Below, piece after piece: positions 42,519-50,500 of a stretch of DNA of 64,000 nucleotides. Position numbers and translations under genes: made by a program. Each line of letters starts with the position of its first letter. The stretch's first letter is position 1. The notes beneath the pieces were generated by a model that made no database searches, was not told where the DNA came from, and was given only the letters and a program-made list of their open reading frames with translations. This DNA comes from an uncultured Armatimonadota bacterium (lineage in GTDB: Bacteria > Armatimonadota > Fimbriimonadia > Fimbriimonadales > Fimbriimonadaceae): the NCBI GenBank assembly GCA_903927025.1, contig CAIYLG010000051.1, forward strand, positions 62,001-126,000. Direction: 5' to 3'.

Positions 42519-42689
42519 CTAATGGTTCCGCAGGAACATATCCGCCAACGTATAAAGACAGTACGCGACAATGAAGACGAACATGTACCACGGCACATAC
42601 CCGTACGTGGTGATTTTGGAGAGGTAGATCAGGGACCTGCCGGGTTCAAGTGGCTCCTTATTGTCTGGCTTGTCTGGTAATTCCGCCAT
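42519..42689 (-). CDS. Small single-pass membrane protein
   Basis: A predicted 56-residue protein (MAELPDKPDNKEPLEPGRSL...), with a charged N-terminal half and one membrane helix (VPWYMFVFIVAYCLYTLADM) near the C-terminus. A longer frame to 42737 exists. The polar-then-helix layout and composition look genuine. Function unknown; similar small tail-anchored proteins often accompany respiratory complexes, but no such gene is near. Confidence 0.5.
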   Translation of the reverse strand: MAELPDKPDNKEPLEPGRSLIYLSKITTYGYVPWYMFVFIVAYCLYTLADMFLRNH

Positions 42690-42777
42690 AACGGCCCGCG
42701 GTCCTTTGGTGTTCAGCGCTTCCACGCAGTTGACCATCCTATCGTACGTCTGGGTTTAAACGCTCGTTGAGAAAGCG

Positions 42778-42786
42778 TGGTATAAT
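42778..42786 (+). promoter_or_regulatory. Extended -10 promoter of the candidate small RNA
   Basis: TGGTATAAT is a perfect extended -10 (TGnTATAAT). The -35 region is poor, as is common with extended -10 promoters. Transcription should start near 42793. Confidence 0.7.
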
Positions 42787-42792
42787 GTGCAT

Positions 42793-42932
42793 CAGCCTTT
42801 TGAGGGCATGGTTTGATCTGTGGGTATTGTTGGCCCCGGGTTGGAATCAGGGGGTGTTTTTCGAAGTTTCGTCTCCGACTTGCCCTCAATCGGCGAAGTC
42901 CGTTCCGAGTTTATTCGGAACGGACTTTTTCT
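42793..42932 (+). ncRNA. Candidate free-standing small RNA of about 140 nt
   Basis: The stretch lies between an extended -10 promoter and an intrinsic terminator, with no convincing protein gene inside. Bases GCC (42795-42797) and TTGAGGGCA (42800-42808) pair with TGCCCTCAA (42881-42889) and GGC (42892-42894), closing a 12-bp stem with a 2x2 internal loop. Inside are CCCC/GGGG (42834-42837 with 42850-42853) and CGAA/TTCG (42862-42871). A closed outer stem around a loose centre resembles the overall shape of 6S RNA, but I do not recognise 6S, SRP, tmRNA or RNase P sequence. A 54-codon GTG frame starting at 42820 is an alternative reading. Confidence 0.6.
42896..42932 (+). terminator. Intrinsic terminator of the candidate small RNA
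   Basis: AAGTCCGTTCCGA pairs with TCGGAACGGACTT (13 bp, loop GTTTAT) and is followed by TTTCTTT on the plus strand. On the minus strand no T-tract follows, so it mainly serves plus-strand transcription. Confidence 0.9.
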
Positions 42933-42950
42933 TTGTCTGACCCGGCAGTG

Positions 42951-44438
42951 CTACTGCGGCTTGACGATGTGCTTCCGAGCCTGATCCAGTTTGTCCATGG
43001 GGCGGCTTTGATCCCAAGGGCCATATCCCTTCTCCTCGTGCTCCTGCATCGAGCGCAGCTCCTTCTGAAAGCCGTCGATTGCATCATCCCACTTGTGAGC
43101 CTTAAGGGCGGCTTCTCCGCGGGCGCCGTTGATCGAAATCCCGGTTGCAGGATCATTTGCATAGCCCATGTAGTTGAGCGTCTCTGCCCATGAGGGACTC
43201 AAGGCGCAGGTTGGCTTCGAGATCGACTGAGAGAAGACTGGCACCACGGTGGCTTCTCCATAAATCTTGTTTCGATAGTTTGGCTGCCAGTGATAGGTCA
43301 CCGTCCCATCCTTCTCTTGGATACCCGCTTCAATCACGCGAGTGAACTTGCCGTCAGGATCCATTTGGGTGGTAACAGTCAGTGTTCTCGGTTGCTTGGG
43401 TTCCAGCGGATGAGGCGGAGTGAATACTTCCATCTCTACCTTTCCGTCTGGTGAGTTGAAGGGACCTTCCATCGAGTTTCCGAACTGACCGACACGGATA
43501 TAGGGAGTTCCGAGGTCATCTTTGAGGTTCAGCGCATATCCGGACCAACTGTTCGGCGATTTGTCGCCGACTTGGTAGGCAAGGAAGACGGTTCCATCTT
43601 CTGCTACTGCCAGGTCGCGGACCACCAGGCGCCCTCGCTTGAATTTCACGCTGGCAAGAGTGGTCTTCTCCATCGCGGATGTGAATTCGGAATCAGCCGC
43701 TTCAGGAGTGAGGGTTCGGTATTTCTTGAGGTCAGGGGTTGGCCCCTTGATGTCCACACCATAGGCGAAAGAGATTGCCTGCCGCTGTCGCCATTTGCCG
43801 CGCTCCTTGGAGTAGATCTCACCCCGGATCGGCAATTCTGTCTTGGCGTCCGCGATCAATACGTATCGTTCAGGAAGCGGGTCATTGTTGAAGCTTGCCC
43901 TTAAAAGCTTCCTCCCATTTTCGCTGAATTCCTCGATATTTGCCGTCTTTCCTGCCTTGAATCCGCCGTTCCCAGCGACAAGGTCAGAGAGCCTCATGTT
44001 GGTCATTGGCGCCCGGTTGCGGACAATATAAGCTTTCAGTTTGGGATCAAACCAATAAGACTTCCCATCCATAATCACCTCTTCACGATTTCCCGCCGCC
44101 GTTGCATACCAAGAGTAATTTTTGGCGAGGATAGACTTTGAGAAGGGAGTCTGGTGGCCCTCAGCATCAATGTTTGAGATGGTGATGCAGACAGTGCCAG
44201 CCTTATCCAAGGCGATCATAATTCCGTGGATGGAGGCGTGAGCATTGAGCGATGCAAGTCCCATCAGCCAGACACCAGCGGCGCAAACTCCAGAAAGAGA
44301 CAGGAACAGACGGCGCCTGAAATGTCCGCTCGCCTTCCCTTTCGAAAGGGCACGGTCAATCTTGGCGTCAAGGTTTGCTGACGCCTCCGGCGCATAGGCT
44401 GCCGCTTTAACTGCAGCTTCAAATTTGGATTCGTTCAT
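42951..44438 (-). CDS. Putative anti-sigma factor with large outer domain
   Basis: A 495-residue single-pass membrane protein. Residues 1-40 are a short cytoplasmic region, followed by one membrane helix at about 43-67 (RRRLFLSLSGVCAAGVWLMG) and a large outer region. The part around SYWFDPKLKAYIVRNRAP and AKTELPIRGEIYSKE resembles the lipoprotein-localisation-like fold of MucB/RseB-type proteins. Its ATG overlaps the stop of the sigma factor gene by four bases, the usual arrangement for an anti-sigma factor. No zinc-type anti-sigma motif is present. Signal unknown. Confidence 0.75.
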   Translation of the reverse strand: MNESKFEAAVKAAAYAPEASANLDAKIDRALSKGKASGHFRRRLFLSLSGVCAAGVWLMGLASLNAHASIHGIMIALDKAGTVCITISNIDAEGHQTPFSKSILAKNYSWYATAAGNREEVIMDGKSYWFDPKLKAYIVRNRAPMTNMRLSDLVAGNGGFKAGKTANIEEFSENGRKLLRASFNNDPLPERYVLIADAKTELPIRGEIYSKERGKWRQRQAISFAYGVDIKGPTPDLKKYRTLTPEAADSEFTSAMEKTTLASVKFKRGRLVVRDLAVAEDGTVFLAYQVGDKSPNSWSGYALNLKDDLGTPYIRVGQFGNSMEGPFNSPDGKVEMEVFTPPHPLEPKQPRTLTVTTQMDPDGKFTRVIEAGIQEKDGTVTYHWQPNYRNKIYGEATVVPVFSQSISKPTCALSPSWAETLNYMGYANDPATGISINGARGEAALKAHKWDDAIDGFQKELRSMQEHEEKGYGPWDQSRPMDKLDQARKHIVKPQ

Positions 44439-45043
44439 CGGAAATCTCCAGTGGATTCGGTCATCTTTCGAGCCCGGGTTCGGGCGCGGCCAAGTAGAGA
44501 GTTCGTGGCCTTTTCGCTTCGGTTGATCACGATAGCGATTTCGGCTATCGAGAGCTCCTCGACAACGCTCATCAGCAGGACATCGCGCTCGTCGGCTGGA
44601 AGCTTAGAAAGCACGGTCGATGCCTGCTCAATCTCAGCGAAGGTGAGGAATTCTCCCATTGCGTCTCGAGCGATATCGGATTCGCGAAGTGCCCATACGG
44701 GGCGCCTTTTGCGGTAGCTGGCGACCAGCTTTCGCCTGGCGATACCAAAAAGCCAAAGGCGGGCATCTCCCCGACACTTTCCCCACTTAGAGAATGCGTC
44801 TGCAAAGATGGCGGCAACAATGTCTTCCGCTTCTTCCACTGGACGCACGCGACGGGCCACGAATGCGAAAACGGCACCTTGGTAGCGACCACGCGCCTCG
44901 TCAAAGGAGAGCGCTTCGGATTTTGCCGGTAGGTTGGCGGCTTCAGTAATAGATTCAGTCAAGGGCAGCTCCAGTCCGTTTGCATAACATGGAGTTCGCC
45001 CATCTCCCGCAATCCTATCGGAGGATTTATCCTTTATGAACAC
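44435..45043 (-). CDS. ECF-type RNA polymerase sigma factor
   Basis: A sigma-70 family extracytoplasmic function factor of up to 202 residues. Region 2 is seen in VRPVEEAEDIVAAIFADAFS and LWLFGIARRKLVASYRKRR; region 4 in LPADERDVLLMSVVEELSIA and EKATNSLLGRARTR. The GTG at 45043 follows the previous stop directly. A TTG at 44962 with GGAG six bases upstream may be the true start, since the first 27 residues do not fit region 2. It forms an operon with the anti-sigma gene and probably controls an envelope regulon. Confidence 0.9.
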   Translation of the reverse strand: MFIKDKSSDRIAGDGRTPCYANGLELPLTESITEAANLPAKSEALSFDEARGRYQGAVFAFVARRVRPVEEAEDIVAAIFADAFSKWGKCRGDARLWLFGIARRKLVASYRKRRPVWALRESDIARDAMGEFLTFAEIEQASTVLSKLPADERDVLLMSVVEELSIAEIAIVINRSEKATNSLLGRARTRARKMTESTGDFR

Positions 45044-48826: not shown

Positions 48827-50500
48827 ATGCAGAAGATGCTCTCATTAGCCGCCGGCATTGCCGCCCTCACTCTTAGCAGTGTTGCAGTTGCGCAATTCGA
48901 CGGTCCGGCGCCGCTTGCCTGGCGATGGCAACAATCCTCAACCTCAGTGCCTGGCGGATCGCCACTGGTACTGGGCAACACAATTTATCAGTCTTTAGGT
49001 GGGCGCATCTTCTCGGTTGATAAGCAGTCCGGCAACCTCAAATGGCGTTTCCCGGCTGTCGATCCGATGCAGGGAGTTTTCCGAACCAGCCCTATTCTTG
49101 CTGAGGACACGCTCGTTGCCGCATGCGACAACAAGCTGATCGTCGGCATTGATCCTAAGACCGGCGAATCGAAGTGGACGACCCCCACGACGGTTTCCGT
49201 ATATGGAGACCCAGTCGCCGCTGGCAAATATGTGATTGCCGCCCTCAGCGACAACACCGTTCTTGCCCTCAATCCTTCAGATGGCACACCTGCCTGGACA
49301 GCTCCGTATCACATCTACGACGGTATCCAAGGCAAGCTCGCCGTTGCAGGTGACAGTGTTTTAATCTGCACTGCCAACGCCAAGCTCATCTCGTTCAATG
49401 CCGTCACTCGACATATTGATTGGAGCCGACAGCTTGAGCAGCTGCCGCCCAATCCAAGTGCCGTCGTCGTTGGAGATCGAATCCTGGTTGTTTCGGGGAC
49501 CTACATGATCGCCCTGAACGCGGCGACGGGTAGGCCGATCTGGCAGATCGATACTCGTCTTCAGATCGCATTCCCACCCGCAATTTCCCCAGCCGGAATC
49601 TTGTTGGTCACGGTTGATGGACAGGCCGTCATGTACGATCTTGACCATCATCTCCTCACCAAGACACCGATTACCCTTGGATCGATTCCTATCTCAAGAC
49701 CGACCGCAGTGGGCAAAAAGTTTATTGTGGAGACCTCCAACGGCGGCCTGATTCTCTTGGATCCAGCAAGCGGCAAAGAGCTTTGGAACTACATCATCGG
49801 CCCAGTCGATGAAACCGTTCGCACTACCACAGGCACAACGTCTGGCGGCGGCGGTGGTTTCGGTGGTGGTGCCGGTGGCAAAGGCGGTCCTGGCGGCGGC
49901 GGTGGCTTCGGCGGCGGTGGCGGCGGTGGTTTCGGCGGCCAGGGTGGAAGCGGAAACTCTAAAGCAGACGACAAGGTCTACTTTGTTCAGGCAAGCAGCC
50001 CTGCGGTCTTGGCAGGACAGACTCTGCTCGTCCCAGTTAAGGATGGCAGCATCCTCGCCTTCGACAAGGATCTCGGCGTGGACCTCACTCCTCCAACGAG
50101 TGAGCTGTTGTTCCCACGAGCTGGAGAGCAGGTCAATGGACTTCCTCCTCTTGTCCTTCTCTTTAAGGTCGAAGATTCAAACTCCGGACTGAACAAGAAG
50201 TCCATTAAGATTGATGTGGACGGCAAGGTGCTTGAGCACACCGTTACCAAAGAGGGTCTCCTCCTGATTCGCTTCAGCCTTAGCGGTAAGAATCCGCCAC
50301 TTCCAAATGGCCGACACGTCTTTACGGTGACGGCTCAGGACTGGATGGGCAACGAAAGCAAGACTGGGTTCGCTCTTATCATTGACAACACGCTTCCTCC
50401 GATCAAGATCCCAGGTCAGGCTGATAACGCTAATCGGCCGGGTGCAGGCGGCGCAGGTGGCGGCGGCGGCAGCGGAGACGGCGGCGGCAACAGCGGTTAG
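48827..50500 (+). CDS. Secreted PQQ-type beta-propeller with Gly-rich linker and Ig-like C-terminus
   Basis: A 557-residue exported protein. After the signal MQKMLSLAAGIAALTLSSVA come blade repeats of the quinoprotein kind (GGRIFSVDKQSGNLKWRF, LIVGIDPKTGESKWTTP, MIALNAATGRPIWQID, LILLDPASGKELWNYI). A glycine stretch of about 40 residues at 340-380 follows, then an Ig-like domain (SELLFPRAGEQVNGLPPLVL) and a second Gly-rich tail. It is probably a scaffold on the cell surface, like BamB-type propellers, and not a dehydrogenase. It lies five bases before dprA but the link is probably accidental. Confidence 0.88.
   Translation: MQKMLSLAAGIAALTLSSVAVAQFDGPAPLAWRWQQSSTSVPGGSPLVLGNTIYQSLGGRIFSVDKQSGNLKWRFPAVDPMQGVFRTSPILAEDTLVAACDNKLIVGIDPKTGESKWTTPTTVSVYGDPVAAGKYVIAALSDNTVLALNPSDGTPAWTAPYHIYDGIQGKLAVAGDSVLICTANAKLISFNAVTRHIDWSRQLEQLPPNPSAVVVGDRILVVSGTYMIALNAATGRPIWQIDTRLQIAFPPAISPAGILLVTVDGQAVMYDLDHHLLTKTPITLGSIPISRPTAVGKKFIVETSNGGLILLDPASGKELWNYIIGPVDETVRTTTGTTSGGGGGFGGGAGGKGGPGGGGGFGGGGGGGFGGQGGSGNSKADDKVYFVQASSPAVLAGQTLLVPVKDGSILAFDKDLGVDLTPPTSELLFPRAGEQVNGLPPLVLLFKVEDSNSGLNKKSIKIDVDGKVLEHTVTKEGLLLIRFSLSGKNPPLPNGRHVFTVTAQDWMGNESKTGFALIIDNTLPPIKIPGQADNANRPGAGGAGGGGGSGDGGGNSG

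Follow-up and report, generated by a model that had tools for sequence, protein, structure and literature searches.

We identified a probable stand-alone small RNA gene, apparently restricted to a few Fimbriimonas species, in an intergenic region (42778–42932, plus strand) of the window, which is the whole 64-kb stretch of DNA that was analysed. A sequence-only reading of the window had proposed a new small RNA here, with its own promoter and terminator, and had likened it to 6S RNA. The first part of that proposal remains the best-supported reading: the limits of a homologous sequence coincide with those of the predicted transcript, pairing is kept in the stem, and an overlapping reading frame is unlikely to be a gene. 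The likeness to 6S RNA did not hold up.

We infer that the unit is transcribed and acts in trans, as follows. RNA polymerase with the housekeeping sigma factor would use an extended −10 promoter, similar to those that serve tRNA-Ile in this genus, and would start near 42793. The transcript, about 138 nt long, would fold as a three-way junction closed by a TTGAGGGCA/TGCCCTCAA stem and would end at its own intrinsic terminator. Its most likely action would be that of a trans-acting regulatory RNA that presents a conserved loop (UUUNUCGAAGYUU). The partner of the loop could be a target mRNA, a protein, or, via the self-complementary CGAAGYUUCG, a second copy of the RNA.

If it is expressed, this would be a first candidate small RNA for the genus Fimbriimonas; a literature search found no paper that names both Fimbriimonas and a small RNA. 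Otherwise it is an ordinary kind of finding, namely an orphan, lineage-specific small RNA. It resembles other orphan intergenic trans-acting bacterial small RNAs in having its own promoter, a compact fold, an intrinsic terminator, and a narrow phylogenetic spread, but it has no family match in Rfam 15.

Genomic setting

The window comes from contig C51 of a 5.25-Mb, Fimbriimonas-like genome that is 98% complete (G000). On this contig, the candidate occupies 104778–104932. The closest relative that has a named record is Fimbriimonas sp. MAG_BO249 (G012, a MAG). As the sequence-only reading had stated, the candidate lies between genes on the opposite strand: it occupies the gap between a divergent ORF of 72 amino acids (42519–42737, minus strand) and a convergent gene (42951–44438, minus strand), which encodes a 495-amino-acid protein with no Pfam match. 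The 72-amino-acid ORF has a hydrophobic C-terminus and no match in Pfam or NCBIfam, and 37 genomes contained no relatives of it. Its start is more likely to be at about 42689, where there is a ribosome-binding site. The convergent gene comes after a gene for an ECF-type sigma factor (44435–45043, minus strand). This pair (42951–45043) is kept in MAG_BO249 (contig C25), and the 495-amino-acid partner of the sigma factor may be an anti-sigma-like protein.

Promoter and terminator

The predicted promoter is the extended −10 element TGGTATAAT (42778–42786, plus strand), with a predicted start at about 42793. It was rightly described as perfect: it is the sole exact match to TGNTATAAT on either strand of the 64-kb window, where 0.3 are expected, and 27 of 100 shuffles of the window contained at least one. 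There is no recognizable −35 box at the usual distance, and a scan for sigma-70 hexamers did not report the site. GGTATNNT elements, which TGGTATAAT resembles, are found at the equivalent place upstream of most of the listed tRNA-Ile genes of the genus, so this type of promoter suits the lineage despite the missing −35 box. These elements could also help to locate further stable RNAs in the Armatimonadota.

The intrinsic terminator is a stem-loop at 42895–42928 (plus strand), with a T-run that continues to about 42932. We count 15 pairs (the sequence-only reading gave 13), a 4-nt loop, and a TTTTTCTTTG tail. There are three strong plus-strand terminators in the 64 kb, and the other two follow the tRNA-Ile gene (30253) and a gene that ends at 50500. 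The candidate thus combines a predicted promoter of its own (judged by the −10 element only) with an intrinsic terminator about 110 nt farther along the same strand, and sequences of either kind are scarce within the window.

The terminator might instead belong to a halogenase/FAD-type oxidoreductase gene (PF04820; 40762–42465, plus strand), in which case the candidate would be part of that gene's 3′ untranslated region. The gene is on the same strand, and there is no strong terminator directly after 42465. Nevertheless, this seems very improbable indeed, because the gene ends 430 nt away with an opposite-strand ORF in between, because the exact extended −10 immediately precedes the element, and because the homologous element in MAG_BO249 adjoins a tRNA-Ile gene and not a gene of this kind.

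A homolog in a related genome

When 61 relatives and then 291 genomes of the phylum were searched with blastn, a single match was significant, in MAG_BO249 (E = 2e-10, 86% identity over 51 nt of the 3′ half). On reading, the MAG_BO249 copy also has an identical 5′ arm (TTTGAGGGCATGGT), and both arms of its closing stem are identical to those in the window. The closing stem marks both limits of the homology, so that the homologous block in the window is directly flanked by the predicted start (about 42793) and the terminator (42895). The proteins encoded around the two copies are mostly 45–70% identical (one gene reaches 85%). At this distance, intergenic DNA that is free of constraint should no longer align, but the element is 86% identical. 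As the two species are well diverged, this non-coding identity implies either constraint or recent exchange.

The element is present in 2 of the 20 genomes of the genus, with one copy in each. A covariance model built from these two sequences gives them scores of 116 and 111 bits; across the 291 genomes of the phylum, it found no further homolog and one coding false positive. Similarly, an unfiltered search with the model in the regions 3′ of tRNA-Ile in five relatives and in the MAG_BO249 neighborhood found only the known copy, and the exact two-arm pattern was found in 84,980 GTDB genomes only on the MAG_BO249 contig. Searches of phages, plasmids, and viral contigs found no homolog.

Several weaker matches were rejected. 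A match to the model in genome G087 (L125, E = 0.22) reads as coding DNA, and two weak blastn matches (L012 and L035) have no arms and are embedded in other sequence. The 13-base 5′ arm TTGAGGGCATGGT is found in 29 of 101 genomes; the element aside, the loci that were read lack the partner arm and look coding-like, and we attribute them to chance.

Predicted fold

The conserved body (42796–42894, plus strand; 99 nt) is predicted to form a three-way junction, with a closing stem and two internal hairpins, according to the homolog, the fold, and the pair counts. The 12-bp long-range stem that had been claimed is present as 9 perfect base pairs, between the arms at 42800–42808 (TTGAGGGCA) and 42881–42889 (TGCCCTCAA), plus 3 base pairs (42795–42797 with 42892–42894) across a 2×2 internal loop. 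A stem of at least 9 bp that links the first and last 20 nt arises in 0.03% of dinucleotide shuffles. Within the junction, the 5′ half (42809–42849) is variable and poorly conserved and has a hairpin of its own; in the consensus alternative, 42810–42813 pairs with 42877–42880. The other hairpin (42850–42876), identified from the alignment and the fold, is conserved: it has a GGGGGTG/CGTCTCC stem and a 13-nt loop, TTTTTCGAAGTTT.

On the loop side of the conserved hairpin, CGAAGYTTCG is self-complementary in both species if G-U pairs are allowed. Its center is GC in MAG_BO249 and GU in the window, with self-duplex energies of −15.1 and −7.4, respectively. Judging from this pattern, the conserved loop would be a natural candidate for target contact or for dimerization.

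The whole unit (139 nt) folds at −63 kcal/mol (z = −5.9). Without the terminator, the body in the window folds only slightly better than shuffled sequences (z = −1.2 to −1.7), so the low z of the unit comes mostly from the terminator. The homolog from MAG_BO249 folds with z = −5.0, and none of 500 shuffles was as good. In the window, the plus strand of the body folds better than the minus strand (−35.2 versus −27.6); in MAG_BO249, there is little difference between the strands.

RNA, DNA, or protein

The differences between the two copies bear on whether the element acts as RNA. The copies share two helices, one being the closing stem together with its inner extension and the other the conserved hairpin, and three substitutions fall within these. 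On the plus strand, these substitutions, at 42810/42880, 42813/42877, and 42852/42874, exchange G-C with G-U, C-G with U-G, and A-U with G-U. On the minus strand, the same three changes give A-C mismatches. Because the G-U pairing is kept on the plus strand only, the substitutions point to a plus-strand RNA rather than to a palindromic DNA or a protein, although weakly, as there are just two sequences to compare. A fourth substitution that keeps pairing belongs to a helix of 2 bp that may well not be real. The outer pairs 42798/42891 and 42799/42890 are present in MAG_BO249 and broken in the window. In all, of the 25 pairs compared between these two sequences, 4 were kept despite a change on one side, 1 was broken, and none changed on both sides.

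The overlapping GTG frame of 54 codons noted in the sequence-only reading does exist (42820–42984, plus strand), and it could be a small protein-coding gene (ESGGVFRSFVSDLPS...) or what is left of a decayed one. What speaks most for a protein is that 4 of the 7 codons that differ within the conserved block are synonymous. Also, the alignment of the two copies has a single internal gap, of 3 nt, and in MAG_BO249, the frame is open from an ATG. However, we judge that the frame is not a gene, because it runs through the terminator and its stop lies 3′ of it. Two codons after the conserved ATG, the window has a TGA, and one antisense frame looks nearly as good (4 of 8 differing codons are synonymous). 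Furthermore, the C-termini encoded by the two copies do not align, there is no match in NCBIfam, and relatives are absent from plasmids and phages, with weak, low-identity matches only elsewhere in the phylum. A coding role is thus very unlikely. The only open frame that is internal to the predicted transcript is AUG-GUU-UGA, with two codons; all longer frames pass the terminator.

Comparison with known RNA families

The sequence-only reading did not recognize the sequence, and neither did covariance searches against Rfam: above threshold, the only match in the whole window was the tRNA-Ile, and a permissive search of the locus gave no family. The locus has weak matches to RF02278 (Betaproteobacteria toxic sRNA, 16.6 bits) and RF02837 (anti-hemB, 14.4 bits), but these fall far short of the respective gathering scores (50 and 49.5), what they match is the terminator hairpin at the end of the candidate, and the families belong to another phylum.

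A 6S-type RNA, which would mimic an open promoter and sequester RNA polymerase, would share with the candidate a closed outer stem, the looser center of the window's fold, and a predicted promoter of its own for autonomous transcription. Also, no Rfam 6S RNA was found elsewhere in the genome. Nevertheless, we consider it extremely unlikely that the candidate is a 6S RNA. The 6S model (RF00013) does not match the locus at up to E = 10. 6S RNA forms an extended rod, about 180 nt in length, that has a bubble at its center, whereas the candidate is about half that size (its body has about 99 nt, the model 187) and branched, with a three-way junction. Its conserved part is the 3′ hairpin and not a bubble, and 18 of the 20 genomes of the genus lack it. 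The absence of RF00013 matches from the rest of this 98% complete genome should be read with a control in mind: the model matched in only 5 of 14 control genomes, so a diverged 6S RNA could be present elsewhere in the genome. In Fimbriimonas, 6S RNA may be absent or too diverged.

Location of the homolog and a mobile origin

The contig of MAG_BO249 that contains the homolog, JARLGV010000054, is a reversed, syntenic counterpart of the window: the tRNA-Ile, the gene at 32.4–34.3 kb, and the block at 48–57 kb are in the same order. The element and the tRNA-Ile are on the same strand in both genomes, but the distance from the tRNA to the element downstream is about 50 nt in MAG_BO249 and about 12.5 kb in the window, and the intervening DNA is lineage-specific. 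The MAG_BO249 copy sits between the tRNA-Ile and a frameshifted GIY-YIG gene, which is followed by a partial tRNA repeat. It shows neither a promoter nor a terminator of its own and, given its position, could be read from the tRNA promoter. The ortholog of the gene at 42951–44438 is on another contig, where the element is absent.

This setting of the second copy, without its own promoter or terminator and between a tRNA-Ile and a broken GIY-YIG gene, makes a mobile hairpin the main rival to a small RNA. That is, a short mobile or palindromic DNA element (similar to MITE or REP elements, or a passenger of a tRNA/GIY-YIG cassette) might have been inserted beside a promoter and a terminator, and the fold would then be a by-product of its inverted-repeat ends. 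Like MITE or REP elements, the candidate has inverted repeats that bound the homology and two copies that lie at different spots of the same neighborhood. The surroundings in MAG_BO249 (tRNA-Ile, frameshifted GIY-YIG gene, and partial tRNA repeat) look mobile, and the two strands of that copy fold about equally well. On balance we think that this is unlikely, although it deserves to be taken seriously. Whereas MITE and REP elements are present in multiple copies, there is one copy each in G000 and MAG_BO249 and none elsewhere in the phylum. We saw no target-site duplication by eye in the flanks of either copy, and the substitutions keep pairing on the plus strand only, as G-U. Finally, the promoter start and the terminator lie within a few bases of the ends of the element, and random insertion is not expected to fit so exactly. 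We also considered an integron attC site, which we rejected on reading the sequence, as the arms carry GTT/AAC in the wrong order.

A more speculative idea, which we think is quite unlikely, would combine a small RNA with a mobile origin. The element could represent a new class of structured RNA in Fimbriimonas that originated in, or travels with, tRNA/GIY-YIG cassettes. Captured in the lineage of the window, it would there have become a gene in its own right, served by a tRNA-type promoter and a terminator of its own, and it would act via its self-complementary loop.

Related arrangements of tRNA genes were seen elsewhere in the genus. In G017 (L147), a pseudo-tRNA-Ile with a CCCGCTAAGGCGGGA hairpin lies directly 3′ of an intact tRNA-Ile, with no GIY-YIG gene in the stretch that was read. 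In several other Fimbriimonas genomes (L094, 1413–1800; L113, 1100–1800; L118, 1296–1800; L097; and L096), small GIY-YIG genes adjoin a tRNA gene. Beside these are partial or degenerate tRNA copies, sometimes in tandem arrays, in which the anticodon arm is replaced by a CCCGA..TCGGG hairpin. This arrangement looks like a tRNA-associated mobile cassette.
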